Shown piece after piece: positions 12,818 to 32,242 of a stretch of DNA of 64,000 nucleotides. Position 1 is the first letter of the stretch; each line of letters begins with the position of its first letter. The DNA is taken from contig NC_087084.1 of NCBI RefSeq assembly GCF_026151205.1, positions 1,154,312-1,218,311 on the forward strand. Reading direction: 5' to 3'. The stretch is from Bolinopsis microptera. Lineage: Eukaryota > Ctenophora > Tentaculata > Lobata > Bolinopsidae. The notes beneath the pieces are model-generated. The model was not told the origin of the DNA and made no database searches. It saw nothing but the letters and a program-made list of their open reading frames with translations. A program made the position numbers and the translations under genes.

Positions 12818-14634
12818 AGCCTTACTTACTTGTACTTGATTAGGTCTTCTCAATCATTCGAGTGGCCTGCACCAATGAACTCCCGTTTGTGACGTATCAT
12901 CTCCCTCCAAAGTTTGCGGTCACTAGCCATCTCGCTCGCTCCTTCTAGGTCTATGTCAGTGTTTCCTGTAAACGCTGCAGCATCTTCCAGCAAACATTTC
13001 CTCCAGTTCTTTCTTGGACGGCCCCTAGATCTTCTCCCATGGGCAGGGGTCCAATTAAGCAGGTACTTAGGAAGCCTAGTGTCTGGCATTCTGGTGACAT
13101 GGCCAAACCAGCGCAGGCGGTTTGCTTCTATGTACGTCTCTACTGGATTTATCTTTGCACGCTCCAGTACTTCAGTGTTTCTAACCCGATCGAGCCATCT
13201 TATCCTAAGTATTCTCCTCAAGCAACGCTGATGGAACACCTCAAAGCGATGTAGCTGCTTTTTGGTTGTGTTCCAAACCTCACTACCATATAACAATATT
13301 GTCAAAACCGCTGCCTTATAAATCCTGATCTTTGTATAAGACTGGATGTTGCGGTTTTTCCATATATTACTCAGTTGATTGAAGGCTCCGGAAGCTTTCT
13401 GAATCCTAGCTGACAGCTCACGGTCGATAGTACCGTCGCTGGAAATAATTGTACCTAAGTACGTAAAGTCACTAACTTGCTGCACTGGCGTGTCTTCAAC
13501 AGTGATGTTCACTGTGGCTTCTTTCGTGTATGGCCGTTGAGAGGTTGCTTTACCAATGACCATAGCCTCAGTCTTTTTACCATTGATTCTAAGACCTCCC
13601 TGGGCACCATACATACACAAAAGGTCAGTCGTTTCTTGAAGACCTTCCTCGCTGTTATCCAGTACAGCCATGTCATCTGCATAATCCGTATCTAACACAG
13701 TGATATCATCAACGAGCGGACTGATAGATCTTTGAAGAACCGCTCCGTGGGACACCACTTTGTTGCTTTCTGTTCTCTCAGCAGCCACATTGAGGCAGAC
13801 ATTAAAAAGTGGGGGACCCTGAATGTCTCCTTGGCCACTGCCTGAACTTACTTCAAACCATTCTGATAGTTCACCATTGTGTCTAACAGCACTAACAGTT
13901 CCATTAAAGAATGCCTGTATTATTCGAATGTATTTACATGGCAGGCCATAATGACTGAAAGCTTTCCAAGTATAATTCCTGTCGATGGAATCAAAAGCTG
14001 CCTTGAAGTCCACAAAATTTACATACAGGGGGAGAATATATTCAATGCAGTTATGTATAATAGTGCGGAGTGAATAAATCTGATCAATGCATGATCTGTT
14101 CTTTCTAAACCCACACTGATTGTCTCGTAGCAAACTTTCTAAACCGTCACTCATGCGATGTAAAATGATGATTTGATACAGTTTAGATGCTGTAGATCTT
14201 AGAGTGATCCCCCTATTATTGGAGCAATGAGAGGTATCACCCTTCTTTGGTACAATTATCACGATGCCTTTCAACCAGTCGTCAGGCACTGCTTCTGAAT
14301 TCCAAACTTTAGAGAACAATTTTTCCATCCTATCCACAAGACCACTTGCCCCATATTTTAACTGTTCATTAGAGATTTCGTCGATCCCAGCACTTTTGTG
14401 ATTCTTCAATTTTTTGAGACAGTTTAAAATCTCAAGTCTAGTGGGGGGACCATCACCATCACCAAGATAAGGAAAGCATGGAACCACTTCAAGATGGTCC
14501 AGGTCAGACAAATCCGCATTCGTGGGAGGAGGGTTTAATAGCTCCGAAAAATGTTCTCTCCATCTCTCTCTCTGAGCAGAGGGATCAGCAATCAACTTCC
14601 CGGATTTGTCTCTTACAGCAGTTGATTTACGATT
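12818..14634 (-). pseudogene. RTE-like LINE, reverse transcriptase part (5' part displaced)
   Basis: Read from 14634 down to 12850, the frame gives the palm of a non-LTR reverse transcriptase: NNRGITLRSTASKLYQ, NQCGFRKNRSCIDQI, VDFKAAFDSI, SGSGQGD and the catalytic YADD, followed by the C-terminal EVWNTTKKQLHRFEVF and WFGHVTRMPDTRLP region. An intact enzyme would do target-primed reverse transcription. Upstream the frame runs straight into the LTR at 14635. Its missing endonuclease lies at 26926-27631 and 36512-36706, and the three parts rejoin in frame when the insertions are removed. The 3' end is near 12818 in a (TTAC)-like tail. It lies antisense in an intron of the receptor gene. Confidence 0.85.
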
Positions 14635-15552
14635 TGTTGTAGCGTGTGCGTAGAAATAAAACAATCTGTTAACACGTAATCATAGAGGCTAGGGAAGAAC
14701 AAATCGTTAATAACAAATTATGATAGCAATCAATGTTCAATATATACAGGGTGGCCCATGATAGTCTACCCATCCTTATCTCTTAAAATTGTTACAGGTC
14801 GCTGAGATCTTGCTAATTATTTTAAAAACAAAAAGTGGCATAACTTATGTTCTGATAAATATTTTTTCTTCTAAATTTCACAGAATGTTAATAACAAGTA
14901 GATGAACCTTTGTGGCAAGTTTTGTGTGATTGAGAGCTTCACTGAGCTTATTTGACCAATAAAGCCCCTGAGCGAGCTAGCTTGAATTTCTCACCCAGAA
15001 CTGTTTACATTGGTTAATAGAAACCACCAAAAAAAATTCCTGGGTAAAAAAATAAAAAAACCAGCGATTTATTCACGTTTTATCAATTCTATTCACCACG
15101 ATCCATCGCACATTCCATTCTCTCTATATTTTAACTGATAAGGACTATCACAGATGATCCTTCCTGCTTGTGTATATCGTTCTTCTCACATGGAATGTGC
15201 GATGAATAGAATTGGTAAAACATAAATAAATCGGTGGTTTTTTAATTTTTTTACCCAGGATTTTTTTTGGTGGTTTCTATTAACCAATGTAAACAGTTCT
15301 GGGTGAGAAATTAACGCTAGCGCACTCAGGAGCTAATTTTGTCAGACAAGCTCAGACTCACACAAAACTTAGCACGAAGTTGTGTCTAATTATGATTGAC
15401 ATTCTCTAAAAATTTGAAGCAAAAATATTAATCAGAACGTAAGTTATGGCGCTTTTCCATTCTGAAATAAAATAATTAGCAAGATCTCAGCGACCTGTAA
15501 CAATTTTAAGAGATAAGGATGGGTAGACTATCATGGGCCACCCTGTATAACA
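14635..15552 (-). repeat. 3' LTR of the Gypsy element, split by a foldback element
   Basis: 112 bp of LTR (14635-14746) and the remaining 5 bp (15548-15552) are separated by an 801-bp insertion including its TA duplication. With the insertion taken out, the LTR has the same length and sequence as the 5' LTR. Confidence 0.88.
14747..15545. mobile_element. TA-flanked foldback/MITE (Tc1-mariner-type target)
   Basis: 799 bp starting CAGGGTGGCCCATGATAGTC and ending with its inverse. Long arms pair over most of the element (for example GCACATTCCATTCT at 15109 with GAATGTGC at about 15190). TA lies on both sides (14745-14746, 15546-15547), and removing one TA plus the element restores the LTR. There is no transposase frame, so it is non-autonomous. 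Confidence 0.85.
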
Positions 15553-15664
15553 ATCTCCCTTCGGCAAGTTATAGCTAGTCGGCCGATACAACTAGCTGCG
15601 CTCGCGTTTAACACGAGGAGCTAGGCGCGCGCGCAAAATTGAGGTCAGGAGGACTGTCGGTAAC
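15553..15664 (-). other. 3' internal end of the Gypsy element with polypurine tract
   Basis: Between the 3' LTR and the next insertion. On the minus strand the purine run GAAGGGAGAT abuts the LTR start TGTTATA, as expected for the plus-strand priming site. The rest (GCGCGCGC-rich) is non-coding. Confidence 0.6.
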
Positions 15665-16082
15665 ACGACATCTGTCCGAAAGCGACATCTGTCCGAATCA
15701 GAAAATATGTTATTTGGACAATAGTTTATGTCGGATCCTACCGTACGATTTTCTTAAAACTTTCCATAAAGTATGGTGGTTATATGACGAATAATATGTG
15801 TAAGTTTGAGCGAGTTTCTATGAGCCAAGTTCAAGATATTACCTTAACTGCAAAAAATATATCCAATTCGGTGGTACTCAGTGGTTCCAAAGCATATATC
15901 TGGAGATCCAACGATACGATTTTCTTGAAAATTCTTCAAACTTACACATATTATTCGTCCTATAACCACCATACTTTATGGAAAGTTTTAAGAAAATCGT
16001 ACGGTAGGATCCGACATAAACTATTGTCCAAATAACAAATTTTCTGATTCGGACAGATGTCGCTTTCGGACAGATGTCGCCC
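15665..16082. mobile_element. Foldback element with repeated CGACATCTGTCCGAA ends
   Basis: Left arm 15668-15810 and right arm about 15938-16082 are near-perfect inverse copies, including TCGGATCCTACCGTACGA and ACTTTCCATAAAGTATGGTG. Each outer end has two tandem copies of a ~16-bp motif (CGACATCTGTCCGAA). The spacer is about 130 bp. The internal frame at 15784-16035 is not conserved and I do not call it a gene. Target duplication is not clear. Confidence 0.75.
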
Positions 16083-16483
16083 TGTCCTGATTTCGGACTG
16101 TCACTTTTTAGCGCTGATTAGCTTAACGTCGCCGCGCGTTCCATACATTTTTTTTTATTGAAATCTTTCAAATCAGTCAATTACATACAAGTTTACACAA
16201 TGAATTAGTTAAATATAATATTGTCCTCTAAGCATGGATTGTCAAAGTTGAAATTGTCTCGGACAAAATGTATGTAACCAAAGGACCTGAGGGTCACCAA
16301 AACACAGATATTGAGTGCAAATGCAGCTCCTGCACAAGCATGGGCCCTTATAAAATTGTAATAAGTTACTTTAAACAAAATCACACACCCATTCAATCAA
16401 TTCATAAAATATTGTGCTGTGAGATGAAATTGAGAAATATGTGAATGCAGACAGCAAGAATAGATAATCTTGAATAAACTATT

Positions 16484-19400
16484 TTACGGATTTGTTTCTA
16501 TTGAATAGTCAAGTTCAGAGTCCGAATCCACCGGGATAATTTTCCCCCACATGTAAGTGGAAAGTTTACTTTTAAAATCAGTGATACTCTCTATCTCACG
16601 GATATCTAGAGGAATGTGATTCCACTTAGTGTGGGTCCTATAGAAGAAATTCTTGGCAAAAGCGTTGGAGCTTGCTCGAGGTGAGATAGAGCTTACAAAA
16701 CATAGAGAGTCCATGTGACTATTTCTGAGCCTTGAGTGGCCTTGAAATGGTTGCAAATATGAGGGTAAAGTGACAGGTATATGTTGCTTCACAATTTTAA
16801 AGAAGAAGATGAGATCCAAGAAGTCAAAGCGGTCTTCAATCGGCATAATCTTCAGCTGTCTGCATTTTTGAATGTATGTGGATGGTGGATAACTCATATA
16901 CTCCTCGTGAAGAATCCACTTAATAGCACGCTTTTGGAGGCCCTCCAGCTTGCTTATCTGGGATTTTGTGACTGGTCTCCATATAACCGAGCAATGCTCA
17001 AATAGGCTCCTCACTAAAGTGAGATACAGTACTCTACGACGATTTACGTCTTGGACAAAATAACAATTTCTTCTCGCCATGCCTAATTTTTGGTTTGCCT
17101 TAGAAAGGACTTTGGAGCACTGATCTTTCCAATCGAGATTTGATGTCACAATTACACCCAGATCCTTTTCATGATCAACATAGTCAAGTGTGATTCTTCC
17201 CATGGAGTATACAAAGTTAAAGAGTGGTAGGACACTAAGGAGGGAAACTGTTTCGGATATCCTTCCTGCGACGGTGAGGACCTTACATTTGTCGGGATGA
17301 AATCTCATTTTATTAGAAAGTGACCAGTCATGGAGATAATCAATGTCCTTCTGCAGTCGCAGGATATCAGACTCCGAAACAATCTTACGCCAAATTTTAG
17401 TATCATCGGCATACAGTGACAGTTGTGTGCCTGGTGAAATCCCCACTGATATATCATCAATGAACATAATGAACAGCAATGGTCCCAAAATTGACCCTTG
17501 AGGTACACCAGACTGGGCGTTTCTCATAGAAGAAAACTTGCCACTTATCAAGACCTGTTGTTGCCTGTCTCTTAGATAATCAGTGATGAATTTCAGTAGC
17601 CTCCCATCAATACCAAATTTGCTCTTTAGCTTAAATAATATAAGATCATGGTTAACCGAGTCAAATGCTTTGGCAAAATCAAAGTAGACTACATCTGTTC
17701 TCATATTTTCATTCAGTGAGAGCGCTAGGCTGTCGCACAGTCCTACAAGATTAGTTGCACAAGATCTCTCAGCTCGGAAACCATGCTGTTTGTCATTGAT
17801 CATGCCATTAGTAAGTGCCAATAACTCATCTCTTATTATGCGTTCAAGAACTTTTGTGATTAAGCATGTAAGAGAAATTGGCCTATAATTTGAAACCTCA
17901 TGTTTATCCCCTTTCTTGAATATTGGTACAATGTGCCCCAGTTTCCACTCCCTTGGTAGTGTCCCAATGTTGTAGCATGAATGAAAAAGTATTGATATAG
18001 GGTATGCGAGCCCAACCGCACAGTTTTTCAAAAGTTTCCCATGGATACCATCAGGTCCATAAGCTTTATTAGCATTAATATTGGAAAGGATTTTGCGAAC
18101 CCTTCTGTGGTCAAATTCAATATCAAAGCGCCAATCATTAGAGTAATCTATATCTATGTCATAAGTTGATGCCTCAGAGAACTGCTCGAAGAAAAAGTCA
18201 TTAAATAGGTTGGCCTGGTCTTCAGGGCAGTTGCGGACAGTGCCTTTGTGGCTTACAAACTCAGGGATCCGCTGACTAGCTGTCTTCGATTTGACATAGG
18301 ACCAAAATTTTTTTGTTATTAAAGCACTATCATCAGATTCATTTAATGTTTCCCTCATCTTTTGAGCAACCACATTTTTGAAATTTTTCCTAGCAAGGGA
18401 GAATGCAATTTCAGCTCTATCACTTTTATGCCTTTCTTTATGTAATCTCACTTTCTTACGCCATGCATCATAACACTCCGAGTCAAACCATGGATCTTGG
18501 CCATCAGTCTTGACAGAGCATTTTTTAACAAATTTATCTGTGACATTAAAAAGTTTGTCCTTAAATTTTTTCCATCCAATTTCAGGTTCTGTGCCATTGA
18601 GCAATGCATCCCAATTCGTGTGTCGGAGTTCATGGTTTAGCCTCTCCCAGTTCACAGTCTTAAAGTTATAGCACATACGCCTGACTGGCTTCTTCCTACC
18701 AACTTTAACGTTGATCTTAAAATTGATGGGGAAGTGGTCAGACTTGCAAGCACTATCTCTCTCACCTACCATTAGGTCATTAATATTTGACACAGAGTTT
18801 GTGAGCAATAGGTCAAGTGTTTTGCCTTTGCAGTGGGTAGGTGTTAACACACATTGTTGAAGGCCTAGATCAACAAAAGATTCAACAAAAGATTGCTCAA
18901 TAGGACAGGAGCTGGCCAGGGTAGACCAGGAAACTCCGGTCAGGTTAAAATCTCCTAGTATGAAGACTTTACTCAGTCCTCTTCTTCTGAGAAGAGTTTT
19001 CAAAGACTCAACAATTTTTTCATGATTTGCGGAGCCCAGTGTACCAACACGATAACATGTGCATACAACAAACTTAATTCCAGTGGATGTCTTAAATTCC
19101 ACAGCAAGAATTTCTGCACCATACTTGAGATGAACTTCCTTTGAAGTTAGATCAAGGTCTGCTCTCACTGCAATCATGACCCCTCCACCATTCCTCCTAA
19201 ACCGGGTTGGATTAGAAGGATCTGGTGGATGAGTTTTCTTCGATCTATCAGAGCGAAATATCTTATATCTGTCAGGGTGCAGAAATTCACTATCAGCAAT
19301 AGAACTCTTAAACCAGGTTTCGTTAAGTATTGCAATATCTATCTTAGCCTCATTAAGATAAGTCGACACTTCAAGACATTTAGTGGTATCAATCATTGGA

Positions 19401-20014
19401 TGGGCATTGTTCAGTTCACCAAAAGGGATGAGACCTTGAACATTCTGAAAGTAAACATTCAATTTATTACCATTCCCAACTCTAACACCTATGGGAGACG
19501 GCCCTGGGTTTACAATTCCAGGGTTTACTAAAACTATCAAAAAACCATTCATCAAAAACAACCAAATTATGCATCCCGTGAGTGTATTGCCGGTTCTACC
19601 AGTAAATATGCAATTTATGTTCTTATGGATTGAAATCTGGCAAAATCTATATAAACCATCGAAACTGTAATTATTCCTCAGATAATACATATTTGCTAAA
19701 TATAAAAAGAAATAAACTGTAAAGCATCGGCACAAGTTAGGAACTGGGTATGTTGGTACAAAGGCTCGGCAATCATAAGTGACCCTAGAAAAAGCCAACC
19801 CACTTACCCCGACATATGTGATAGTGATTAGCGAAAAGTGACATATGAATATAACATAAAAAATATAAAATAATAAGCGAGAATCAATGCAGCTGTCTAA
19901 ATAATCAAAAATACTACCTGTACCACGTCTACGGTTCTGATGTTTGATGGATTTTGCAAAAGAATTTCCACTAAACACTCCAACTCTAAATCTGTATGTT
20001 ACTAAATCGATCAT
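16484..20014 (-). CDS. LINE ORF2: endonuclease-reverse transcriptase
   Basis: 1176 residues. From about residue 184 there is an apurinic-type endonuclease: LNVYFQNVQGL, ILNETWF, NGGGVMIAVR, VFILGDFNLTG, TLDLLLTNS and the catalytic SDHFPI. From about residue 650 there is a reverse transcriptase with VPIFKKGDKHEVSNYRPISL, QHGFRAERSCATNL, YFDFAKAFDSVNHDLI, SGVPQGSILGPLLF and the active site YADD, then the CR1-type C-terminus (SLFEHCSVIWRP, KLEGLQKRAIKWIL). It would nick target DNA and copy the element RNA into it. Odd point: the first ~175 residues contain two or three strongly hydrophobic stretches (YIFYVIFICHFSLITITYV, CIIWLFLMNGFLIVLV) ahead of the usual NPGP start, so the true start may be internal. 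It lies 82 bp downstream of ORF1. Confidence 0.9.
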   Translation of the reverse strand: MIDLVTYRFRVGVFSGNSFAKSIKHQNRRRGTGSIFDYLDSCIDSRLLFYIFYVIFICHFSLITITYVGVSGLAFSRVTYDCRAFVPTYPVPNLCRCFTVYFFLYLANMYYLRNNYSFDGLYRFCQISIHKNINCIFTGRTGNTLTGCIIWLFLMNGFLIVLVNPGIVNPGPSPIGVRVGNGNKLNVYFQNVQGLIPFGELNNAHPMIDTTKCLEVSTYLNEAKIDIAILNETWFKSSIADSEFLHPDRYKIFRSDRSKKTHPPDPSNPTRFRRNGGGVMIAVRADLDLTSKEVHLKYGAEILAVEFKTSTGIKFVVCTCYRVGTLGSANHEKIVESLKTLLRRRGLSKVFILGDFNLTGVSWSTLASSCPIEQSFVESFVDLGLQQCVLTPTHCKGKTLDLLLTNSVSNINDLMVGERDSACKSDHFPINFKINVKVGRKKPVRRMCYNFKTVNWERLNHELRHTNWDALLNGTEPEIGWKKFKDKLFNVTDKFVKKCSVKTDGQDPWFDSECYDAWRKKVRLHKERHKSDRAEIAFSLARKNFKNVVAQKMRETLNESDDSALITKKFWSYVKSKTASQRIPEFVSHKGTVRNCPEDQANLFNDFFFEQFSEASTYDIDIDYSNDWRFDIEFDHRRVRKILSNINANKAYGPDGIHGKLLKNCAVGLAYPISILFHSCYNIGTLPREWKLGHIVPIFKKGDKHEVSNYRPISLTCLITKVLERIIRDELLALTNGMINDKQHGFRAERSCATNLVGLCDSLALSLNENMRTDVVYFDFAKAFDSVNHDLILFKLKSKFGIDGRLLKFITDYLRDRQQQVLISGKFSSMRNAQSGVPQGSILGPLLFIMFIDDISVGISPGTQLSLYADDTKIWRKIVSESDILRLQKDIDYLHDWSLSNKMRFHPDKCKVLTVAGRISETVSLLSVLPLFNFVYSMGRITLDYVDHEKDLGVIVTSNLDWKDQCSKVLSKANQKLGMARRNCYFVQDVNRRRVLYLTLVRSLFEHCSVIWRPVTKSQISKLEGLQKRAIKWILHEEYMSYPPSTYIQKCRQLKIMPIEDRFDFLDLIFFFKIVKQHIPVTLPSYLQPFQGHSRLRNSHMDSLCFVSSISPRASSNAFAKNFFYRTHTKWNHIPLDIREIESITDFKSKLSTYMWGKIIPVDSDSELDYSIETNP

Positions 20015-20096
20015 GGTGTTTTACAGGTGAGTATACTTGCCAGACTACAACTGCATATCATTAGCTTAACAAGGTTCAGAAGACAGCACAAAAGAA

Positions 20097-21542
20097 CTAC
20101 TGATAGATATAAGGATTAAAATATCTACTGTGGATGGCACGAATATAAAATCTGGCCAACACACCCATACCTTTCTGAGGATTGGGGTGAATGCCTTTGT
20201 TCTCAAATAAGGGATCAAATCTCTTAACAGGCTCACTTAGAGCTCTCTTAAACTTTGTAAAGGGATAAAACACATCCATGAAAAAGAACCTCCTAAATAC
20301 ACACTCATTGTATAAAATCCTATTAAAATCCATTACCCTCTTGTTAGTTAATTTATCGTTATCATTCTGTAAAGGTAATGGCAATAGAGATTGAACATAT
20401 ACCTTACAGTTGGGAAATAATAGGCCTATCTTACCAAAAAGTTGCTTTACTGGTCCCCTCAAAATACCAATTTTATCCCCCACACGCCTAATATCGTTTG
20501 TGCCTACGCTGATCAGAAGCTTCTCAACGTGGACATCAGGATGTGCCGTGCAGTAGTCCTCCAACTGTTTCTGGACTTTGTCCATTTTTGCTCCGCCTTC
20601 TGCAACATTTACGACTGTGACTTTCCCTTTTCCCAGCTTTGCGGAGTCCAATCTTTGAGCATAAGAGTCTCCAGCAACCAACGTGACTCTTTGCGCAGGT
20701 ACTTGGGCTTCGGTGCCAGAAGCTGGTGTACTAGTCTCTGTGCTGATATTCTGAGAGCTAACTTGGCCACCAGATTTCACAATAGCTCGAAATGACAGGG
20801 AGTATCTTACTTGCTCCGATTTCTTTGGAGGCTCTCCCTTTGTGGCCGGCTCTGCTCGCACAGCATGCCTCAGATTCTGCTGTGTCCCAGGCCGCATTAC
20901 AACAAGACTGTTGTTCTTCATCCTTATCGTCTTGACACAATTAGGTTTCCCAGTTGTGCCCTCGTAAAACTCAAGCGTCCGTTCACATCCCAGTGAGAAA
21001 GAGCAAATCGATTTCTCCTGGTCCATTAGTTTCTCACCGTCATTGTGTATTGAAGTACTCGCTTGGTTGTTTCCATACTTGATGACCAGACATGAGTCCA
21101 GAGGTCCAGTTATCTCCGTACTCGAGTTTACAAGACTCAGGAGTCTTTTGATATTAGGGAAACCACTGATATCCTGTGGTGGGTGCACTGGATTTGTGTC
21201 AGTGTAAATATAGGGTGCATCCTGTGAGCACAACCAAGCTGTTGTTGCCTTGTGTCTTCCCTCGGTGTTCAGTTTCTGCAGGGACTCACATTCAACCCAT
21301 ACCGCATCACGGAGAACCTCATCCTCGCAGAAGTCCTCTATATGTAACACAAAATTGTCCACCTTTCCCTCACGCTTTGGCAGCTCGTTTTGAACAGAGT
21401 TAAGGATATGACGTAGATCCTCAACTGAGGCAGCTTTGACATAGTCGAAAATCTCTTGAAGGTTTATCATTGTTGTCAGAGATTGTCGAGTCTGGCAGCA
21501 AAGTTTGCCAGGGAACCATCCGTAACACCTCAGAGTAGGCAA
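20097..21542 (-). CDS. LINE ORF1: AlkB-like dioxygenase fused to SGNH esterase
   Basis: 481 residues; M1 or M25 may be the start. Residues ~120-255 match the AlkB 2OG-Fe(II) oxygenase pattern: LVIKYGNNQASTSIHNDGE gives the HxD iron ligands (H166, D168), SFSLGCERTLEFYE the following strand, LRHAV the distal ligand (H226), and RYSLSFR the oxoglutarate-binding arginines (R246, R252). Residues ~285-465 match SGNH hydrolases: GDSYAQRL (Ser293), a glycine at 316-317, GTND (Asn349) and GIHPN (His452); the usual Asp three residues before that His is Lys here. Esterase domains are known from CR1-type ORF1 proteins; the AlkB part is the surprise. A possible role is demethylation or protection of the element RNA plus membrane or lipid interaction, which is inference only. 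It sits directly upstream of ORF2. Confidence 0.75.
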   Translation of the reverse strand: MPTLRCYGWFPGKLCCQTRQSLTTMINLQEIFDYVKAASVEDLRHILNSVQNELPKREGKVDNFVLHIEDFCEDEVLRDAVWVECESLQKLNTEGRHKATTAWLCSQDAPYIYTDTNPVHPPQDISGFPNIKRLLSLVNSSTEITGPLDSCLVIKYGNNQASTSIHNDGEKLMDQEKSICSFSLGCERTLEFYEGTTGKPNCVKTIRMKNNSLVVMRPGTQQNLRHAVRAEPATKGEPPKKSEQVRYSLSFRAIVKSGGQVSSQNISTETSTPASGTEAQVPAQRVTLVAGDSYAQRLDSAKLGKGKVTVVNVAEGGAKMDKVQKQLEDYCTAHPDVHVEKLLISVGTNDIRRVGDKIGILRGPVKQLFGKIGLLFPNCKVYVQSLLPLPLQNDNDKLTNKRVMDFNRILYNECVFRRFFFMDVFYPFTKFKRALSEPVKRFDPLFENKGIHPNPQKGMGVLARFYIRAIHSRYFNPYIYQ

Positions 21543-22188
21543 CCTCCCACAACACTAAACACGACCTGGAAGGAAAATGGCACGAGAAAATGTGTAATGA
21601 AACTGCTGGTCGGGAGTAAAGTTAAATTTGCCAGTGAAAATATAGCTAGAGTAAGGATAAGAGGGGCAATATCAGAGATGTAAAAATTCACATTCAAAAT
21701 AAGCTAACAATGAGAAAGAAGTAAAAGAGAAACTTACATCGTGTTTAAGGTGTTGTTGCCCAGTGCAAGCACTGGGCGAGAGGAGCCTAACTCAGGAGGC
21801 GAACTTCAGGAACCCCAGCGCACCCGCATACCAGGAGATCGGCTGTACTTCCTAGCCCGTCATGCCATTGTACATGTGGAACAACTTTTGTGACCAAACT
21901 GGTCTTTAACTTAAACTGTCAGAAAACAGACATAAAAAATACTTTCTCCCCACAGGTCGGGACAAAATTAGCAACATTTTACTTCTTAAACGTTAAAAAC
22001 TTGTAACTCATATTTCCATAAAATTGGATTAGCCACGTTCTCTGTCGAATTATTAAAATACATAAGTTAAATCAGGAAATCTGTAAAATTTAAAATAATG
22101 AGTGACTCTAAAAATGTGATAAAAACAGCGGTTTGACAAATATTACAACATACGGGTTTACAATGATTTCAGTTCGTGATTACTCATT
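21543..22188 (-). other. LINE 5' UTR and Gypsy 3' tail, no gene
   Basis: GC-richer sequence to about 21.88 kb (CCCAGTGCAAGCACTGGGCG forms a small hairpin at about 21760) is probably the LINE 5' UTR. The AT-rich remainder is probably Gypsy 3' sequence. No frame of note and no clear insertion junction. Confidence 0.4.
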
Positions 22189-22461
22189 CTAACTCATGGT
22201 TTTCATTTTAGTGATAGCATCACTCTTAGCACTTCTGGTTGGTCTCAAACGCGGTTCAGGTAAGGGTGCACCACCTGTAGCTGTAGGTTTGGACAACTCA
22301 GACACCCGGACTTGCTTGTCGTTGGTTTTCAGGGGGGAAGCAACTTTCGGTTGAGGACGCTCAGTCACTTTAGCCGGTGAGGTATCCTTGACTGGGGACG
22401 CTGGTTTCGCCACAGCCTCAAGTCTGTTGCCGTTCGGAACTCCTAGGTTTAGTGCATTCAT
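22189..22461 (-). CDS. Small Pro/Lys-rich frame downstream of Gypsy pol
   Basis: 90 codons rich in Lys, Pro, Ser and Thr, with no domain. It lies 65 bp after the pol stop in a different frame. Basic, proline-rich tails ending in an RPTRS-like stretch are common at the C-terminus of Ty3-type Pol proteins, so this may be a separated Pol tail after a frameshift rather than an independent gene. Recognition is weak. Confidence 0.35.
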   Translation of the reverse strand: MNALNLGVPNGNRLEAVAKPASPVKDTSPAKVTERPQPKVASPLKTNDKQVRVSELSKPTATGGAPLPEPRLRPTRSAKSDAITKMKTMS

Positions 22462-22526
22462 TCTCCGTCTTTCCCTTGTTTCATGCAGCTTCTGGAACTT
22501 AATGTCAGAGCGAGCTATCTCTCTGG

Positions 22527-25500
22527 TTAACAGCGTTTTTGCGGACTAGTGATTGCTTTTCGTTCCATCCTTATAACGGGGGTGTGTCGTGGTTTTATTG
22601 CGTCAGCGTTTTTCTTTACAATCCTGTCTCCGTGTTGGACCACGTAATTGTTCGAATTATCACCGAGTCTTTTGATTACTCTAGCTTGTTCCCAGTGGCT
22701 TTTGTCGTCCATTTTGGCGAAAATGAGCTGATTTTCCCGGAACTCTCGAGTTCTGGGGTGTTCGTTAATTGCAACTTGCAGTTTCTCAGATTGCAATTCC
22801 TGCTCCCTCATCCGATCGGTTGGTTTGATTTGGTGTAGTTTAGATCGCAGAGTTCTGTTGAACGCTAACACAGCTGGTGTTTGACCAGTAGACGAATGGG
22901 GTGTGTTGCGGTAAGTTAGCAGAAAATCATTCAGATTCTTGCACACGTCCTTACTGGTTACAGACATCTTTTTCAGGGCGGATTTAAACGACTGAACAAG
23001 TCGTTCGCAGATTCCGTTTGATTTGGGAGAATACGTCGGAACAGTCACGTGCTTTATACCACAGGATTTCAGATATCCCTCAGTTTCATCCGACACGAAC
23101 TGTGGTCCGTTATCCGTTACCAGACAGATTGGAATACCTGTACGAGAGAATATGGATCTAAAAGCACGTATTGTAGCACTAGATGTTGTATTTGTGTTCA
23201 TTTGAACAACTTCAGGCCACTTGCTGTAAGAGTCTACTAATAATAGCCACATGCTGCCCAGGAATGGGCCCGCAAAGTCAGCGTGTACTCTTTGGAAAGG
23301 TGCACTGGTTTTAGCCCAGGGGTGGTCAACGACTTTAGTCATGTTCTTACCATACTTGGCGCATGTCTCACACGTCCGAGCAGTATCCTCGATTTGTGTG
23401 TCAAGACGTGGCCAGTAAACGTAAGATCTGGCCAAGGATTTCATACCTGTTACTCCAATGTGAGTGGCGTGCAGAATATCCATTACAGTGCTTCTCAGTT
23501 TAGCGGGAATCACGACACGGGCTCCCCAAGTTAAACATCCAAGTTCATGGCTCAACTCGTCTCTTCTAGTCCAGAAAGCTTTGAGATCACCGTCACATTT
23601 CAGATTCTTCGACCAACCATTCAGAGTGTATTCCAAAACTCTGCTCAGAATCGGGTCCTTACGAGTGTCGTTCGCCACTAACTCAGCATTGAGTAAAGTC
23701 TCGCTCATAGTCAGTGCGAACATATCACCAAACTCGTCTCTCTCCCTCACAGGGTGTGTTACCGATTTTGGCAGCCTGGATAACATATCAGCGTTAGCAT
23801 GATCCTTGGTATTACGATATTGAATGTCATACTGGTAATTCATAAGGAATAAAGCCCACCTAGTTAACCTACCGGCAGTCATCTCTGGAATTGGCTTATC
23901 GCCAAATATACGAACCAGCGCACGATGATCTGTCACCAAGGTAAACTGTCTCATATACAAGTAAATATGTAGGCGCTTTATGGCCCACACTATGGCCAGG
24001 GCCTCTTTGTCCACTTGAGCGTAATTCCTCTCGGCCGGTGACAGGGTCCGGGAGATGAACTCAATGGGGCGCTCATCCCCATTCAGCATAATGTGAGACA
24101 ACACTGCGCCAATGCCACCGATTGAAGCATCAGTGTCCAGTTTAAGAGGAAGCTTGGGATTGTAAAAGGTCAATACACGGTTAGAAGCCAGCAGATTTTT
24201 CAATATTTTAAACGCTGTCTTTTCGGTATTTGTCCACACCCACTTTACATTCTTAGCTCTCAGCCTTTCAATTGGAGCAATCACAGACGACAAGTTGGGC
24301 AAATAGCGCCTGTAATAATTCACAGCCCCCAAAAAACTAATTAGTTCGTCCACATTCCTAGGTTCTGGAGCCATCAGCATACTCTCGACCTTGCTTTTCA
24401 CGGGTTTGATCCCTTCAGCAGACACCACATGACCCAGATAGACAACTTCTTTTTGCATGAAAGAAGTTTTTTCGGTTTTACATTTAAAACCTCGCTGCTC
24501 CAACCTACTTATGACATTATTGAGGTTGATCAGATGGTCACTCTCATTTCGACCAGAAACTAATATATCGTCAATTCTGCAGCACGTCATAGGCACACCC
24601 CACAGAGTGTCATCCATACATGACTGGAATATAGCCGATGCACTGCTGATGCCATACGGCAAGCGATTCCATTGATACAACCCTTTGTGCGTATTCAGGG
24701 TGGTCAAGACACGGTCCTCATTTCTTATCAACAGGTTATTATAAGCCTTTTTGATGTCAATCTTAGAGAACGTTTGTCTCCCCTGCACAGCATTCAGACA
24801 TTCCTCCACGGTAGGTAGAGGGTATTGTCGGGTGCTGATACATTTGTTCAGGGTCGATTTATAATCCCCACAAATGCGCACTGACTGCCCTCCATCCTTC
24901 TTCACAGGCACTATGGGTGTCCCCCATGGACTGTCTTCGACTTTGGTTAGAATCTTCGCTTCAACCATATCATTTAACTCACTTTCAACCTTGTTTCTCA
25001 AGGCATAGGGTAGACTACGGGCTTTCATCATAATAGGTTTGGAGTTGTCCTTCAGGACCAAACTTGCCTGTACACCCTTAACTAGTCCTAAACCCGATTT
25101 AAACACCTCGCTCTGTTTTAACTGAGCGATACTACGACATTGATCAACCCGAGTACAGGTGTTTTCACATTTCCACCTGTTTTTCACGGTCGCACCATCG
25201 GTTAGCATGTCACCCTTATCGACACCACTCCCAGAGCAGCTTTCACAGCTCACTGACACCTGCTGGGATTTGTCTGGGGCTAAATTATGTACTAACTTTG
25301 TGCTGAGCAGCTTCTCTAGCCAATTCTGTCCACAGAACTTTACAATCCACGGTCTTCCAAACAAATTGGGGAAGTCCTCTGCTACATAGAGCTGCATTCC
25401 ATGAGCTTTTTCACCGTTCAACTCTACATTAACTACGGCACAGCCGTCAACTGTTTTGATTTGTCCGTTTGCAACCCGTAATGTTTGCCTGCTGGGTGTA

Positions 25501-26807
25501 AGTGTTAAATTGGCCAAGCCACAAGATAATAATGTACGTTTGCTCACAACAGACACTGCAGACCCTGAATCGAACTCCATAGACAGAAGTTTACCGTTGA
25601 TTTCTACTTCTACATACGGTTTGCTTAACTCAATCATATTGACATTCGGAAACACATTATCAGAAACTAAACTTAAGTCAGATTTATCAGTGGTAATAGT
25701 GGAATCGGGATCACAAACAAGATAACTAAAATCAAAGGCATTAAACACCTTATCCCTCACATACATATTTGAAGATTTCGAATCAGTTAAATGAGTAAGT
25801 TTAGAGAAATCAGCACACAGATAAGAACATGTATTAGCATTACCTTTTTCAATCTCAACTGAATTACACTCATTGTCATGATCATACTCGGGGTAAAGCT
25901 CATTGTCCAAGACATTTTCACAATTCTCATCCATACCGAACTCATAACTCTCCGAACTCGACTCTCCTTGTTCAATGTTGTGAACAATGCTGTTTTGCTT
26001 GCAATTCTTGGAGATGTGTCCAATACGTTTGCAGATATGACACCGGACTTGACAATTTTCACCAATATGTCCACGAAGTCCGCACCGTCTACATTTAAGT
26101 CCCTTTTGCATTCCACTTTTCTGCTTTCCACCCGAACCACCTGAACTTTCCCCCTTCTTCCCATAGAGGTTTTTCATTGTTCTTTTGAATGTTGGTTTCA
26201 CAAAGTTCACTGATCTCGATGACTCTCCCGGTGATAGCGTACTATTCATGAATTGAGCCTCCCTGTTTGCTTGCTCACGACTTAAAGCTTCCTTCACCGC
26301 GGTTGCCAGTGTTAAGTCATCCTTAGTTAACAACTCGGAAACAACCTTTTGATTCCTCAGTCCAGCGAGCAGCTGATCCAGTATAGCCTCGTTGTAGTTG
26401 GCAAAATCACATTCATTTGCGATTGTTCTTAGTCTTGAAACATAGGTTGCTGTGGATTCTTCGCCCTCCTGCACACAGCTTCTCAGTTTGTATCTTTGGG
26501 CAAACTTTGTTGGTGCCGGGGCCAAGTGATCTAAAATGAGTTTCTTACACTCCTCGTAACTGCAGTCTTCCATCTTTTTTACGGTCAGTGACTTCAACAG
26601 CTTGTAAATGTTCTCATCTGTCCTTGCAATAAAGCCTGCTAAATTCTTCTTTATAGCCATGTTTCTAGCCTCACGGTTAGAACCGTCATTAGCTAACTCT
26701 GGGACCTCTGCTGCCAGTCCTCCCGCCAATAACTCAAACTCGTATCTTTCAAACCAGCTTTTTTGACAGCATGTGACGGTTAGTGGCTCTTTTGTCCTCG
26801 TCGCCAT
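22527..26807 (-). CDS. gag-pol: Gypsy Gag-Pol polyprotein
   Basis: 1426 residues in one open frame from the ATG at 26807 (an upstream Met at 26876 would lie inside the LTR). In order: Gag capsid-like region; two CCHC knuckles near residues 239-269 (CRRCGLRGHIGENC, CHICKRIGHISKNC); an aspartic protease with active-site FDSGSA near 415; a reverse transcriptase (DGGQSVRICGDYKSTLNKCI, FSKIDIKKAYNNLLI, active site IDDILVSG in place of the common YVDD); an RNase H (LDTDASIGGIGAVL); and an integrase with the HHCC finger (HATHIGVTG ... CETC), the D,D,E core (HADFAGPF, VTDNGPQFVS, SPKSNGICER) and a chromatin-side tail. Gag and Pol share one frame, so no frameshift is needed. No stop interrupts it. It is the pol type often labelled K02A2.6-like in animal genomes. 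Confidence 0.93.
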   Translation of the reverse strand: MATRTKEPLTVTCCQKSWFERYEFELLAGGLAAEVPELANDGSNREARNMAIKKNLAGFIARTDENIYKLLKSLTVKKMEDCSYEECKKLILDHLAPAPTKFAQRYKLRSCVQEGEESTATYVSRLRTIANECDFANYNEAILDQLLAGLRNQKVVSELLTKDDLTLATAVKEALSREQANREAQFMNSTLSPGESSRSVNFVKPTFKRTMKNLYGKKGESSGGSGGKQKSGMQKGLKCRRCGLRGHIGENCQVRCHICKRIGHISKNCKQNSIVHNIEQGESSSESYEFGMDENCENVLDNELYPEYDHDNECNSVEIEKGNANTCSYLCADFSKLTHLTDSKSSNMYVRDKVFNAFDFSYLVCDPDSTITTDKSDLSLVSDNVFPNVNMIELSKPYVEVEINGKLLSMEFDSGSAVSVVSKRTLLSCGLANLTLTPSRQTLRVANGQIKTVDGCAVVNVELNGEKAHGMQLYVAEDFPNLFGRPWIVKFCGQNWLEKLLSTKLVHNLAPDKSQQVSVSCESCSGSGVDKGDMLTDGATVKNRWKCENTCTRVDQCRSIAQLKQSEVFKSGLGLVKGVQASLVLKDNSKPIMMKARSLPYALRNKVESELNDMVEAKILTKVEDSPWGTPIVPVKKDGGQSVRICGDYKSTLNKCISTRQYPLPTVEECLNAVQGRQTFSKIDIKKAYNNLLIRNEDRVLTTLNTHKGLYQWNRLPYGISSASAIFQSCMDDTLWGVPMTCCRIDDILVSGRNESDHLINLNNVISRLEQRGFKCKTEKTSFMQKEVVYLGHVVSAEGIKPVKSKVESMLMAPEPRNVDELISFLGAVNYYRRYLPNLSSVIAPIERLRAKNVKWVWTNTEKTAFKILKNLLASNRVLTFYNPKLPLKLDTDASIGGIGAVLSHIMLNGDERPIEFISRTLSPAERNYAQVDKEALAIVWAIKRLHIYLYMRQFTLVTDHRALVRIFGDKPIPEMTAGRLTRWALFLMNYQYDIQYRNTKDHANADMLSRLPKSVTHPVRERDEFGDMFALTMSETLLNAELVANDTRKDPILSRVLEYTLNGWSKNLKCDGDLKAFWTRRDELSHELGCLTWGARVVIPAKLRSTVMDILHATHIGVTGMKSLARSYVYWPRLDTQIEDTARTCETCAKYGKNMTKVVDHPWAKTSAPFQRVHADFAGPFLGSMWLLLVDSYSKWPEVVQMNTNTTSSATIRAFRSIFSRTGIPICLVTDNGPQFVSDETEGYLKSCGIKHVTVPTYSPKSNGICERLVQSFKSALKKMSVTSKDVCKNLNDFLLTYRNTPHSSTGQTPAVLAFNRTLRSKLHQIKPTDRMREQELQSEKLQVAINEHPRTREFRENQLIFAKMDDKSHWEQARVIKRLGDNSNNYVVQHGDRIVKKNADAIKPRHTPVIRMERKAITSPQKRC

Positions 26808-26808
26808 T

Positions 26809-26925
26809 TGTTGTAGCGTGTGCGTAGAAATAAAACAATCTGTTAACACGTAATCATAGAGGCTAGGGAAGAACAAATCGTTAATAACAAATTATGATAG
26901 CAATCAATGTTCAATATATATAACA
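26809..26925 (-). repeat. 5' LTR of the Gypsy element
   Basis: 117 bp, TGTTATATATATTG to GCTACAACA on the minus strand, flanked outside by the target duplication CGATT (26926-26930). The gag ATG begins one base past its inner end. Confidence 0.9.
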
Positions 26926-27631
26926 CGATTCTTCTTACCGGACAGTGTTTTTATCCGTTGCCAGACTTCCCTTTGCCGGCCATGGACAGCAGCTGTTTCC
27001 AGATCTGCTGCAACTCTAAGAGCCCAATTCTCGTCGTCTTTCCTGCAGCTCTTTTTGACAAGTTTATTGGCCCGAGAATACTCGCTCCTATTGTTGTTGT
27101 CACTAGGCGCCATCTGTTTAATCTTACTGCGTTCTGCAATAAGGCTTTTTGTCTCCTGAGACAAATGCTGCTGCTTTCTGCGCCGGGGGCGCTCACCCAA
27201 TACCTCCATAGACACTTCTTTAATAGTATCCTTAACTAATGTCCATTCTCCATCAAGATTCTCCTCCATTGGTAGGCAGCTAAAACGATTTTGAAGAGCA
27301 ATGCAGTACTCTTCAACCTTGGACTGATCTCTAAGATTCTCAATTGCTGGAGATATCCTACGAGAAGCGTTCATTTTTTGAACTGCCATAAGTTTGACTC
27401 TAAATTGACCCCGAACCAAATAATGATCGGAGCCAATGTCTGCACCCCTGCATGATCTTACGTCAAGTAGAGAGTGACTCCACTTGGTAGAAATACAGAC
27501 ATGGTCAATCTGATTTACTGTGCGGCCATCTGGAGACTTCCAACTTCCTTTATGAATATCACGATGCTGGAAAAGCGTCCCACCGATTGTCAGCTGATTT
27601 AATGCACAGAAATCTAAAAGTCGAAGGCCGG
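26926..27631 (-). pseudogene. RTE-like LINE, C-terminal endonuclease and linker
   Basis: On the minus strand the frame gives GLRLLDFCALNQLTIGG, HRDIHKGSWKSPDGRTVNQIDHV and IGSDHYLVRGQF, the second half of an apurinic-type endonuclease of the kind annotated as craniofacial-development-protein-2-like. A linker to the reverse transcriptase follows. Translation ends inside the Gypsy LTR (stop at about 26904). Both of its borders are insertion points: it continues in frame into the part at 12818-14634 when the Gypsy element and one CGATT are removed, and into 36512-36706 when the Ig array is removed. Confidence 0.85.
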
Positions 27632-27703
27632 ACTTGCAATACAGTTTTTGATTCACTTCCAATTTCTATCTCTCCACCACATTTAAAATTCAATTCAAAC
27701 CAG

Positions 27704-30330
27704 ATAAACCAAATGCAAGTGTCATAGATTTCGAAATTAGGAGTATTCATTTATCAAAATTTACTTCAGAGGTTGAATCAGCGAATAAAGAAACGAAAAA
27801 GGGCTCTGATACAACCATATCCTGTGTTATCACTGGATTGACAGAAACAGCAACAGTGACCTGGCGAACTAGTACAGGCCAAGTTTCAGGTGATACGCTC
27901 GTCCCTGTCCAAGGAAGCCATTCTGGAGGGACACAAACATCAACTCTTGAAGTAGACGGAAGTCTTGTGAATGAAGATACTGCCTACACTTGCAGAGTCA
28001 CTTCCGGATCTTTGCCCGATTCCAGCCACTCAGATACCACCGTCAATCTTAACGTTTATGGTAAGTTTTTCAACGCTAACAGTTATCTTGCAATACAGTT
28101 TTTGATTCACTTCCAATTTCTATCTCTCCACCACATTTAAAATTCAATTCAAACCAGATAAACCAAATGCGAGTGTCATAGATTTCGAAATTAGGAGTAT
28201 TCATTTATCAAAATTTACTTCAGAGGTTGAATCAGCGAATAAAGAAACGAAAAAGGGCTCTGATACAACCATATCCTGTGTTATCACTGGATTAACAGAA
28301 ACAGCAACAGTGACCTGGCGAACTAGTACAGGCCAAGTTTCAGGTGATAAGCTCACCCCTGTCCAAGGAAGCCATTCTGGAGGGACACAAACATCAACTC
28401 TTGAAGTAGACGGAAGTCTTGTGAATGAAGATACTGCCTACACTTGCAGAGTCACTTCCGGATCTTTGCCCGATTCCAGTCACTCAGATACCACCGTTAA
28501 TCTTAACGTTTATGGTAAGTTTTTCAACGCTAACAGTTATCTTGCAATACAGTTTTTGATTCACTTCCAATTTCTATCTCTCCACCACATTTAAAATTCA
28601 ATTCAAACCAGATAAACCAAATGCGAGTGTCATAGATTTCGAAATTAGGAGTATTCATTTATCAAAATTTACTTCAGAGGTTGAATCAGCGAATAAAGAA
28701 ACGAAAAAGGGCTCTGATACAACCATATCCTGTGTTATCACTGGATTGACAGAAACAGCAACAGTGACCTGGCGAACTAGTACAGGCCAAGTTTCAGGTG
28801 ATAAGCTCGTCCCTGTCCAAGGAAGCCATTCTGGAGGGACACAAACATCAACTCTTGCTGTAGACGGAACTCTTGTGAATGAAGATACTGCCTACACTTG
28901 CAGAGTCACTTCCGGATCTTTGCCCGATTCCAGTCACTCAGATACCACCGTTAATCTTAACGTTTATGGTAAGTTTTTCAACGCTAACAGTTATCTTGCA
29001 ATACAGTTTTTGATTCACTTCCAATTTCTATCTCTCCACCACATTTAAAATTCAATTCAAACCAGATAAACCAAATGCGAGTGTCATAGATTTCGAAATT
29101 AGGAGTATTCATTTATCAAAATTTACTTCAGAGGTTGAATCAGCGAATAAAGAAACGAAAAAGGGCTCTGATACAACCATATCCTGTGTTATCACTGGAT
29201 TGACAGAAACAGCAACAGTGACCTGGCGAACTAGTACAGGCCAAGTTTCAGGTGATAAGCTCACCCCTGTCCAAGGAAGCCATTCTGGAGGGACACAAAC
29301 ATCAACTCTTGAAGTAGACGGAAGTCTTGTGAATGAAGATACTGCCTACACTTGCAGAGTCACTTCCGGATCTTTGCCCGATTCCAGTCACTCAGATACC
29401 ACCGTTAATCTTAACGTTTATGGTAAGTTTTTCAACGCTAACAGTTATCTTGCAATACAGTTTTTGATTCACTTCCAATTTCTATCTCTCCACCACATTT
29501 AAAATTCAATTCAAACCAGATAAACCAAATGCGAGTGTCATAGATTTCGAAATTAGGAGTATTCATTTATCAAAATTTACTTCAGAGGTTGAATCAGCGA
29601 ATAAAGAAACGAAAAAGGGCTCTGATACAACCATATCCTGTGTTATCACTGGATTGACAGAAACAGCAACAGTGACCTGGCGAACTAGTACAGGCCAAGT
29701 TTCAGGTGATAAGCTCACCCCTGTCCAAGGAAGCCATTCTGGAGGGACACAAACATCAACTCTTGAAGTAGACGGAAGTCTTGTGAATGAAGATACTGCC
29801 TACACTTGCAGAGTCACTTCCGGATCTTTGCCCGATTCCAGTCACTCAGATACCACCGTTAATCTTAACGTTTATGGTAAGTTTTTCAACGCTAACAGTT
29901 ATCTTGCAATACAGTTTTTGATTCACTTCCAATTTCTATCTCTCCACCACATTTAAAATTCAATTCAAACCAGATAAACCAAATGCGAGTGTCATAGATT
30001 TCGAAATTAGGAGTATTCATTTATCAAAATTTACTTCAGAGGTTGAATCAGCGAATAAAGAAACGAAAAAGGGCTCTGATACAACCATATCCTGTGTTAT
30101 CACTGGATTGACAGAAACAGCAACAGTGACCTGGCGAACTAGTACAGGCCAAGTTTCAGGTGATAAGCTCACCCCTGTCCAAGGAAGCCATTCTGGAGGG
30201 ACACAAACATCAACTCTTGAAGTAGACGGAAGTCTTGTGAATGAAGATACTGCCTACACTTGCAGAGTCACTTCCGGATCTTTGCCCGATTCCAGTCACT
30301 CAGATACCACCGTTAATCTTAACGTTTATG
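27704..30330 (+). CDS. Ig-domain exons, copies 1-6
   Basis: Six exons of 119 codons, at 27704-28060, 28158-28514, 28612-28968, 29066-29422, 29520-29876 and 29974-30330. Each is bounded by AAACCAG| and TTTATG|GTAAG with phase 1 at both ends. The domain has the Ig signature: first cysteine in TISCVITG, the core tryptophan in VTWRTS, and the second cysteine in EDTAYTCRV (the D-x-A-x-Y-x-C motif). It would form one extracellular Ig fold per exon, for adhesion or recognition. Differences: copy 1 has DTLVPVQ, copy 3 DKLVPVQ and LAVDGTLV; copies 4-6 are identical in protein. No start codon belongs to these exons: they depend on splicing from an upstream exon such as 12015. Confidence 0.85.
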
Positions 30331-30427
30331 GTAAGTTTTTCAACGCTAACAGTTATCTTGCAATACAGTTTTTGATTCACTTCCAATTTCTATCTCTCCA
30401 CCACATTTAAAATTCAATTCAAACCAG

Positions 30428-30783
30428 ATAAACCAAATGCGAGTGTCATAGATTTCGAAATTAGGAGTATTCATTTATCAAAATTTACTTCAGAGGTTGA
30501 ATCAGCGAATAAAGAAACGAAAAAGGGCTCTGATACAACCATATCCTGTGTTATCACTGGATTGACAGAAACAGCAACAGTGACCTGGCGAACTAGTACA
30601 GGCCAAGTTTCAGGTGATAAGCTCACCCTGTCCAAGGAAGCCATTCTGGAGGGACACAAACATCAACTCTTGAAGTAGACGGAAGTCTTGTGAATGAAGA
30701 TACTGCCTACACTTGCAGAGTCACTTCCGGATCTTTGCCCGATTCCAGTCACTCAGATACCACCGTTAATCTTAACGTTTATG
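30428..30783 (+). pseudogene. Ig-domain exon copy 7, one-base deletion
   Basis: Same as its neighbours except that GCTCACCCCTG has lost one C (about 30627), giving a 356-bp exon. Read in phase, it hits a stop after about 17 codons (LLK then TAG near 30678). Splice sites are intact, and skipping this exon would keep the frame of the transcript. Confidence 0.85.
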
Positions 30784-30880
30784 GTAAGTTTTTCAACGCT
30801 AACAGTTATCTTGCAATACAGTTTTTGATTCACTTCCAATTTCTATCTCTCCACCACATTTAAAATTCAATTCAAACCAG

Positions 30881-32145
30881 ATAAACCAAATGCGAGTGTC
30901 ATAGATTTCGAAATTAGGAGTATTCATTTATCAAAATTTACTTCAGAGGTTGAATCAGCGAATAAAGAAACGAAAAAGGGCTCTGATACAACCATATCCT
31001 GTGTTATCACTGGATTGACAGAAACAGCAACAGTGACCTGGCGAACTAGTACAGGCCAAGTTTCAGGTGATAAGCTCACCCCTGTCCAAGGAAGCCATTC
31101 TGGAGGGACACAAACATCAACTCTTGAAGTAGACGGAAGTCTTGTGAATGAAGATACTGCCTACACTTGCAGAGTCACTTCCGGATCTTTGCCCGATTCC
31201 AGTCACTCAGATACCACCGTTAATCTTAACGTTTATGGTAAGTTTTTCAACGCTAACAGTTATCTTGCAATACAGTTTTTGATTCACTTCCAATTTCTAT
31301 CTCTCCACCACATTTAAAATTCAATTCAAACCAGATAAACCAAATGCGAGTGTCATAGATTTCGAAATTAGGAGTATTCATTTATCAAAATTTACTTCAG
31401 AGGTTGAATCAGCGAATAAAGAAACGAAAAAGGGCTCTGATACAACCATATCCTGTGTTATCACTGGATTGACAGAAACAGCAACAGTGACCTGGCGAAC
31501 TAGTACAGGCCAAGTTTCAGGTGATAAGCTCACCCCTGTCCAAGGAAGCCATTCTGGAGGGACACAAACATCAACTCTTGAAGTAGACGGAAGTCTTGTG
31601 AATGAAGATACTGCCTACACTTGCAGAGTCACTTCCGGATCTTTGCCCGATTCCAGTCACTCAGATACCACCGTTAATCTTAACGTTTATGGTAAGTTTT
31701 TCAACGCTAACAGTTATCTTGCAATACAGTTTTTGATTCACTTCCAATTTCTATCTCTCCACCACATTTAAAATTCAATTCAAACCAGATAAACCAAATG
31801 CGAGTGTCATAGATTTCGAAATTAGGAGTATTCATTTATCAAAATTTACTTCAGAGGTTGAATCAGCGAATAAAGAAACGAAAAAGGGCTCTGATACAAC
31901 CATATCCTGTGTTATCACTGGATTGACAGAAACAGCAACAGTGACCTGGCGAACTAGTACAGGCCAAGTTTCAGGTGATAAGCTCACCCCTGTCCAAGGA
32001 AGCCATTCTGGAGGGACACAAACATCAACTCTTGAAGTAGACGGAAGTCTTGTGAATGAAGATACTGCCTACACTTGCAGAGTCACTTCCGGATCTTTGC
32101 CCGATTCCAGTCACTCAGATACCACCGTTAATCTTAACGTTTATG
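30881..32145 (+). CDS. Ig-domain exons, copies 8-10
   Basis: Exons 30881-31237, 31335-31691 and 31789-32145, each 119 codons, phase 1-1. They are identical in protein to copies 4-6 and show no base difference from one another that I can see, introns included. This points to very recent duplication or gene conversion. Confidence 0.85.
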
Positions 32146-32242
32146 GTAAGTTTTTCAACGCTAACAGTTATCTTGCAATACAGTTTTTGATTCACTTCCA
32201 ATTTCTATCTCTCCACCACATTTAAAATTCAATTCAAACCAG

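Follow-up and report, generated by a model that had tools for sequence, protein, structure and literature searches.

A ctenophore LINE with an AlkB-like dioxygenase domain and an SGNH/GDSL hydrolase-like domain fused in ORF1

The window analysed here is a stretch of 64,000 nucleotides (nt) from the ctenophore Bolinopsis microptera (NCBI RefSeq assembly GCF_026151205.1, contig NC_087084.1, positions 1,154,312 to 1,218,311 of the forward strand). It carries a long interspersed nuclear element (LINE) whose first open reading frame (ORF1) encodes an AlkB-type 2-oxoglutarate (2OG)- and Fe(II)-dependent dioxygenase domain followed by an SGNH/GDSL hydrolase-like domain. The fusion of the two in one ORF1 was proposed in an earlier note made from the letters of this DNA, and is supported by profile matches, predicted fold and the residues conserved, by signs of purifying selection and by numerous other copies. 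Judged from the sequence, chances are about evenly balanced that an ALKBH2/ALKBH3-like demethylase in the ORF1 protein (ORF1p) rids the RNA or complementary DNA (cDNA) of the element of methyl groups that block base pairing.

The ORF coordinates of the earlier note (20097-21542) were right and belong to the minus strand (21542-20097), which it left unstated. Its motifs sit at the residues it gave in the numbering of a 481 amino acid (aa) form starting at TTG: IHND from 165, LRHAV from 224, RYSLSFR from 246, GDSY from 291, GTND from 347 and GIHPN from 450. Residues below are numbered in the 457-aa form from the first in-frame ATG (21470). Conservation was counted in a 120-row alignment made up of the window protein and 119 of the 120 listed homologues (P0076, a merged model, was left out), gapped rows being excluded from counts.

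20097..21470, minus strand: ORF1, 457 aa, AlkB-SGNH fusion, open from ATG to TAG (Pfam)
20775..21365, minus strand: AlkB-type 2OG-Fe(II) dioxygenase domain, residues 36-232
21039..21047, minus strand: HxD iron ligands H142 and D144, each in 116/116 ungapped rows
20865..20867, minus strand: distal iron ligand H202, 119/119 rows
20787..20807, minus strand: R222-x5-R228, 2-oxoglutarate clamp, 119/120 and 118/120 rows
20118..20705, minus strand: SGNH/GDSL hydrolase-like domain, residues 256-451, with S269, G293, N325 and H428

The two domains of ORF1

Profile searches place both domains above their curated Pfam cut-offs, as the earlier note had suggested checking: PF13532 (2OG-FeII_Oxy_2) matches ORF1 with E 4.7e-16 (60 bits against 31.2) and PF13472 (Lipase_GDSL_2) with E 5.2e-10 (40.5 bits against 32.9). 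These E-values rule out a chance match of motifs. In PHROGs, ORF1 matches an alkylation-repair family (E 5.4e-11); an NCBIfam scan of ORF1 gave no match. A profile of the AlkB half alone, run against PDB sequences, retrieved ALKBH3 (4.1e-14), ALKBH2 (4e-8) and AlkB (6.9e-6), and the predicted structure has the AlkB fold. With HxD...H and R-x5-R all present, the AlkB assignment holds; a significant 2OG-Fe match, the AlkB fold and ORF1 in other copies were found where the earlier note had looked for grounds to abandon it. Besides the ligands listed above, E146 is kept in 116/116 rows.

All 31 sequences listed at E <= 1 in the PDB search with the AlkB half are ALKBH3, ALKBH2 or AlkB. This argues against the AlkB half being an eraser of N6-methyladenosine (m6A) that hides LINE RNA from m6A-based host control or alters translation, as proposed for an AlkB of orchid Gypsy elements, and we regard such a role as improbable. 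Fold matches listed include ALKBH2, ALKBH3, AlkB and FTO; ALKBH5 and ALKBH1 are absent among the 50 listed, which does not count against either. From the best sequence and fold matches rather than from a tree, the nearest relatives of the AlkB half may be ALKBH2 and ALKBH3. The human forms of these are cellular repair enzymes, with 16-22% identity to the ctenophore AlkB half over the fold. A search of protein databases with the AlkB half gave 57 matches, mostly members of the same family or fragments, with a few distant proteins of 219 aa (E 1e-8 to 4e-6).

The best fold match is ALKBH2, solved on duplex DNA according to the PDB titles. This favours a different target, in which the enzyme would act on DNA or host factors, removing 3-methylcytosine (3mC) or 1-methyladenine (1mA) from cDNA or the target site, or oxidising a protein or silencing mark where the element inserts. 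The position of the domain in ORF1, whose product is RNA-associated in other LINEs, favours RNA instead, and action on DNA or host factors seems unlikely, although DNA methyltransferases (DNMTs) are described as introducing 3mC and co-occurring with ALKB2, and Mnemiopsis as having genic CG methylation (PMC9246332).

In the SGNH half, the residues of blocks I, II, III and V are kept in every row that covers them: S269 in 119/119, G293 in 118/118, N325 in 118/118 and H428 in 115/115. OSK is a degenerate SGNH-like domain that binds nucleic acid, and its profile is matched by the SGNH half in 19 of 48 scanned relatives (E <= 0.01) and in the ORF1 of one further copy (L022), a hint, by analogy, that this half may bind RNA.

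Two departures from canonical active sites speak against reading the two halves in the usual way. An NxY motif, not known to be universal, precedes HxD in AlkB proteins, including human ALKBH3 and ALKBH2; here Asn is not among the commonest letters at column 130, and Tyr132 is kept in 103/116 rows. We read this as a variant site, retain the name AlkB-like, and lower the claim of activity because the Asn is replaced. In the SGNH half, the Asp of DxxH, three residues before the SGNH His, is not conserved: the window has K425, other rows mostly N, S, G, K or R, and the acid occurs as Asp in copies L026 and L027 and as Glu in L028. Of the esterase described in the earlier note, the SGNH domain and its Ser, Gly, Asn and His blocks therefore stand, but its standing as an enzyme is less certain than was implied, since the block V acid is not conserved. 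Both departures, like the OSK matches, would suit an AlkB domain that is non-catalytic and kept as a nucleic-acid-binding scaffold, comparable to OSK. Binding alone would not demand that five Fe and 2OG ligands be invariant or nearly so over 120 rows, and we consider a pure scaffold very unlikely, a catalytic demethylase remaining the preferred reading.

The LINE and its ORF2

16148..21876, minus strand: LINE copy (body) of ~5.73 kb with open ORF1 and ORF2, its 3' end lying in AATAAAAAAAAA; nine copies (L009-L017) align from 21876
21471..21876, minus strand: 5' untranslated region, common to fetched copies, 23 matches genome-wide
20015..20096, minus strand: gap between ORF1 and ORF2, 82 nt
16484..20014, minus strand: ORF2, 1176 aa, apurinic/apyrimidinic endonuclease (APE)-type endonuclease and reverse transcriptase (Pfam)
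16148..16483, minus strand: 3' untranslated region with A-rich end

ORF2 matches endonuclease profiles (PF14529, 5.3e-11; PF03372, 2.7e-5) and a reverse transcriptase profile (PF00078, 3.3e-29); no Pfam match to RNase H was found in ORF2 at E <= 10. The element thus has the make-up of a two-ORF APE-type LINE, with ORF1, then APE and reverse transcriptase in ORF2, an A-rich 3' end and 5'-truncated copies elsewhere. The link of ORF1 to a LINE polymerase, claimed earlier, is seen in the window and in further copies, in which the ORF2 endonuclease and reverse transcriptase adjoin ORF1. A comparison based on the leader-less 5' end, made when the true one had yet to be recognised, showed no clear target-site duplications. 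The element is a young LINE and is probably autonomous.

Copies, subfamilies and selection

The assembly that holds the window (264.65 Mb in 232 contigs) was searched. Eleven of the contigs labelled C1-C13 span 15.2-26.2 Mb, matches on C4 and C7 lie beyond 16 and 19 Mb, and C15 spans 0.17 Mb. ORF1 gave at least 96 matches, eight of them with internal stops; the true copy number is not 96 and is probably higher, because a single copy can account for several matches and scoring covered 93 of the 710 candidates. Seven copies, the window copy included, match ORF1 at full score and 100% identity. Over 5.7 kb, copies L009-L017 are 99.16-99.95% identical to the window element, and the closest pair (L010 and L012) differs at two body sites; such near-identical copies indicate recent movement and amplification. 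A host gene is ruled out by the 96 repeat matches and by near-identical copies on many contigs, and a decayed relic by open frames and purifying selection.

Twenty further copies were fetched, picked to span subfamilies. In all 20, ORF1 is open and followed by ORF2 sequence. Fifteen of them also have an open ORF2, which is broken in the other five (L017, L020, L021, L025 and L027). In L027, ORF2 is interrupted after ~518 aa by an inverted copy of the ORF2 of another AlkB-LINE subfamily. Seven subfamily representatives show pairwise identities of 27-80% in ORF1 (27-48% save for one at 80%) and 41-90% in ORF2. Pfam finds endonuclease and reverse transcriptase in ORF2 of five divergent subfamilies and GDSL in ORF1 of all five; PF13532 is reported in one of the five, yet all 21 ORF1s compared retain the ligands for Fe and 2OG.

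The ratio of non-synonymous to synonymous substitution rates (dN/dS) between the window copy and L018, of the 80% subfamily, is 0.156 for AlkB, 0.099 for SGNH and 0.497 for the linker; the pair L024/L025 gave 0.137 and 0.135. The low values in AlkB and SGNH indicate that selection has kept both domains. The young pair L026/L027 gave 0.785 for AlkB (two silent and six replacement changes) and 0.195 for SGNH, and more distant pairs are saturated.

Relatives in databases and in a second genome

A search of 5.8 billion proteins returned 140 homologues of ORF1 at E <= 0.001, and both Pfam domains occur in 94 of the 120 listed (hand count). Among the 48 relatives scanned (E <= 0.01), PF13532 was found in 44 and PF13472 in all 48. 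In a tree with 100 database relatives, the subfamilies of this genome fall in several parts, the nearest identity being 35-95%. A scan of IMG/VR found no relative of ORF1.

Two gene models of Mnemiopsis leidyi have AlkB and then endonuclease in one protein. In the first, a part that matches ORF1 residues 1-323 at 71% identity runs on into one that matches ORF2 residues 194-885 at 88%; in the second, the corresponding parts match ORF1 residues 2-298 (57%) and ORF2 residues 190-649 (67%). The skipped parts suggest an intron drawn by gene prediction across both ORFs. An ORF1 match (P0004) and an ORF2 match (P0175) are probably on one contig, both contigs being 494,976 bases long.

Spliced-leader 5' ends

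In all 12 fetched copies of the window subfamily and its 80% relative, ~38-44 nt of extra sequence, e.g. GTTTTAATACTTTCAACACTACTATATAACAAATAATTTTAGG, precede the body. More generally, most full-length copies of several AlkB-LINE subfamilies have nearly the whole host spliced-leader (SL) exon in front of the body. On contig C3, where units are repeated in tandem at 591-bp spacing, one unit has GTTTTAATACTTTCAACACTACTATATAACAAATAATTTGAG and then GTAAGATT, as expected of an SL RNA gene with its 5' splice site. In the genome, GTA directly follows an exact copy of the exon tail at 175 sites, against 0 for the reversed control, and the leader at <= 3 mismatches is found 1490 times against 0 for the control. 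The array and these counts identify the LINE leader as the whole or nearly whole SL exon. By eye, it is homologous to the SL published for Hormiphora californensis, a ctenophore with 13 chromosomes (PMC8527503). Taken together with the Mnemiopsis matches, this homology marks the host as a ctenophore, one probably closely related to Mnemiopsis. Leader-bearing 5' ends were seen in L009-L020, L022, L024, L025, L027, L028 and 29 of L029-L058, with an SL gene in L059; 29 of 30 inspected exact leader matches run into a LINE start.

Leaders vary between copies. A second array, on C5 (428-bp spacing), has a leader variant ending TTATTGAGG and is probably a second SL family; eight exact leader matches end TTATTTAGG, including L012, L014 and L025. 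Leaders have been exchanged between copies, since L010 and L012, for all their near-identity, carry different leader types, and the recurrence of some variants in several copies speaks for partial inheritance. The third base before the junction is G in SL genes, but T in 18/19 and C in 1/19 LINEs of the window subfamily and its 80% relative. In the 478-aa subfamily it is T in 29, G in 10 and A in 2 (n=41), and in the 521/523-aa subfamily T in 24, C in 2 and G in 2 (n=28), a few rows of each having unrelated sequence in front. The GAG end of the leader is thus mostly TAG or CAG in LINE copies. Three processes could each account for some of this: LINE RNA may be trans-spliced, with a YAG acceptor being selected for; the reverse transcriptase may jump from its template to SL RNA; or a modified base may be misread.

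The window copy has no leader and starts at CATG (21876), within ~1 base of the leader-body junction, a point unlikely to result from random 5' truncation.

Comparison with known systems

No description of AlkB, or of an AlkB-SGNH fusion, in a LINE was found among the papers listed from the open-licence literature of PubMed Central; Repbase was outside this search and may hold an entry. The nearest parallel is in orchids, where Ty3/Gypsy elements of Phalaenopsis are described as carrying an AlkB ORF with m6A demethylation in vitro (PMC9289625). Both are retrotransposons that encode an AlkB-family 2OG dioxygenase. According to the same source, the orchid case is a plant long terminal repeat element with a separate AlkB ORF that falls among ALKBH5 homologues and was acquired recently in one lineage, whereas the ctenophore element is an animal non-LTR one, whose AlkB domain is part of ORF1, is fused to SGNH, seems closest to ALKBH2/3 and occurs in subfamilies that diverge to 27-48% (one 80%). 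AlkB capture was apparently independent in the two, the orchid AlkB being ALKBH5-like. AlkB domains are also described in plant RNA viruses of the Alphaflexiviridae, Betaflexiviridae and Closteroviridae (PMC9289625); these too are RNA-based replicators with their own AlkB, but they are RNA viruses.

Type IV esterase ORF1 proteins of CR1/L2 LINEs, such as zebrafish ZfL2-1, likewise have SGNH in ORF1 ahead of an APE-reverse transcriptase ORF2, but there the esterase is described as preceded by a coiled coil and by a linker that is poorly conserved (PMC3905857, PMC4120745). Neither AlkB nor dioxygenase occurs in the text of either paper, and in the data set of PMC4120745 the esterase ORF1 type is given as limited to two vertebrate groups. 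SGNH in ORF1 is thus a trait shared with the CR1 clade and type IV, and CR1 is a candidate placement for the element.

The 5' ends recall Pr77 LINEs of trypanosomatids, which have a spliced-leader host and a short shared 5' module, to which two factors of SL RNA genes, TBP and SNAP50, bind (PMC8190864). Pr77 is a 77-nt promoter that the passages of that paper on it do not describe as an SL exon, whereas the ctenophore module is an SL exon. Among the papers listed on spliced leaders and retrotransposons, no account of such LINE 5' ends was found.

Neighbourhood in the window

The AlkB-LINE lies in nested insertions (14632-26920), inside a Ty3/Gypsy element that itself interrupts an RTE-like LINE. 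The Ty3/Gypsy element has an open ORF (22527-26876, minus strand) and identical 115-bp terminal repeats, and pieces of the RTE-like LINE lie at 12850-14664 and 26904-27662. A target duplication (AATCG) was seen by eye, as were two inverted-repeat elements between 14760 and 16140. A 454-bp tandem array occupies 27633-33776 and 34927-36512 (13.5 and 3.5 copies, 99 and 96% matches); by eye its unit seems to be an exon for an Ig-like domain, and the array may be a gene whose numerous Ig exons are almost identical. A single-ORF protein of 1211 aa at 53821-57456 (plus strand) has LDL-receptor class A repeats and a rhodopsin-type seven-helix domain. A 42-bp minisatellite (59432-64000, ~109 copies, 98% matches) is open in more than one frame and runs off the window.

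Proposed role and significance

In other LINEs, ORF1p binds the RNA of the element, and ORF2p nicks DNA and reverse-transcribes. The modified bases 1-methyladenosine (m1A) and 3-methylcytidine (m3C) stop reverse transcriptases, and ALKBH3 removes both; PDB titles among the ALKBH fold matches name 1meA and 3mC. In the mechanism proposed here, ORF1p would accompany the RNA of its element, and its AlkB half would remove, by oxidation, the methyl groups of m1A, m3C and the corresponding DNA bases. With the RNA template or the first cDNA strand cleared in this way, target-primed reverse transcription could pass formerly blocked bases. The SGNH half would help ORF1p to associate with RNA or membranes and may hydrolyse weakly. 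Template repair within the ribonucleoprotein (RNP) would be the simplest such mechanism. An excess of full-length copies was dropped as support for template repair, 12 5' ends (98-100%) standing against at least 40 3' ends (40 of 210 candidates scored).

The proposition as a whole is tentative and on the doubtful side: an animal LINE lineage would carry its own ALKBH2/3-type RNA-repair enzyme in ORF1p, clearing methyl groups that block reverse transcriptase from the template in the RNP, would have kept it through deep divergence, and would have repeatedly taken the 5' end of its RNA from host SL RNAs.

Should ORF1p prove active as a demethylase, it would show a retrotransposon using its own enzyme against damage to its template or against RNA methylation by the host. 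The role of ORF1 proteins without RNA recognition motif (RRM) domains would become testable, and the single change H142A should separate packaging from repair. The element would be an animal non-LTR counterpart to the AlkB of plant viruses and orchid Gypsy elements, and would be an argument that methylation of nucleic acids is a broad limit on RNA-based replicators.
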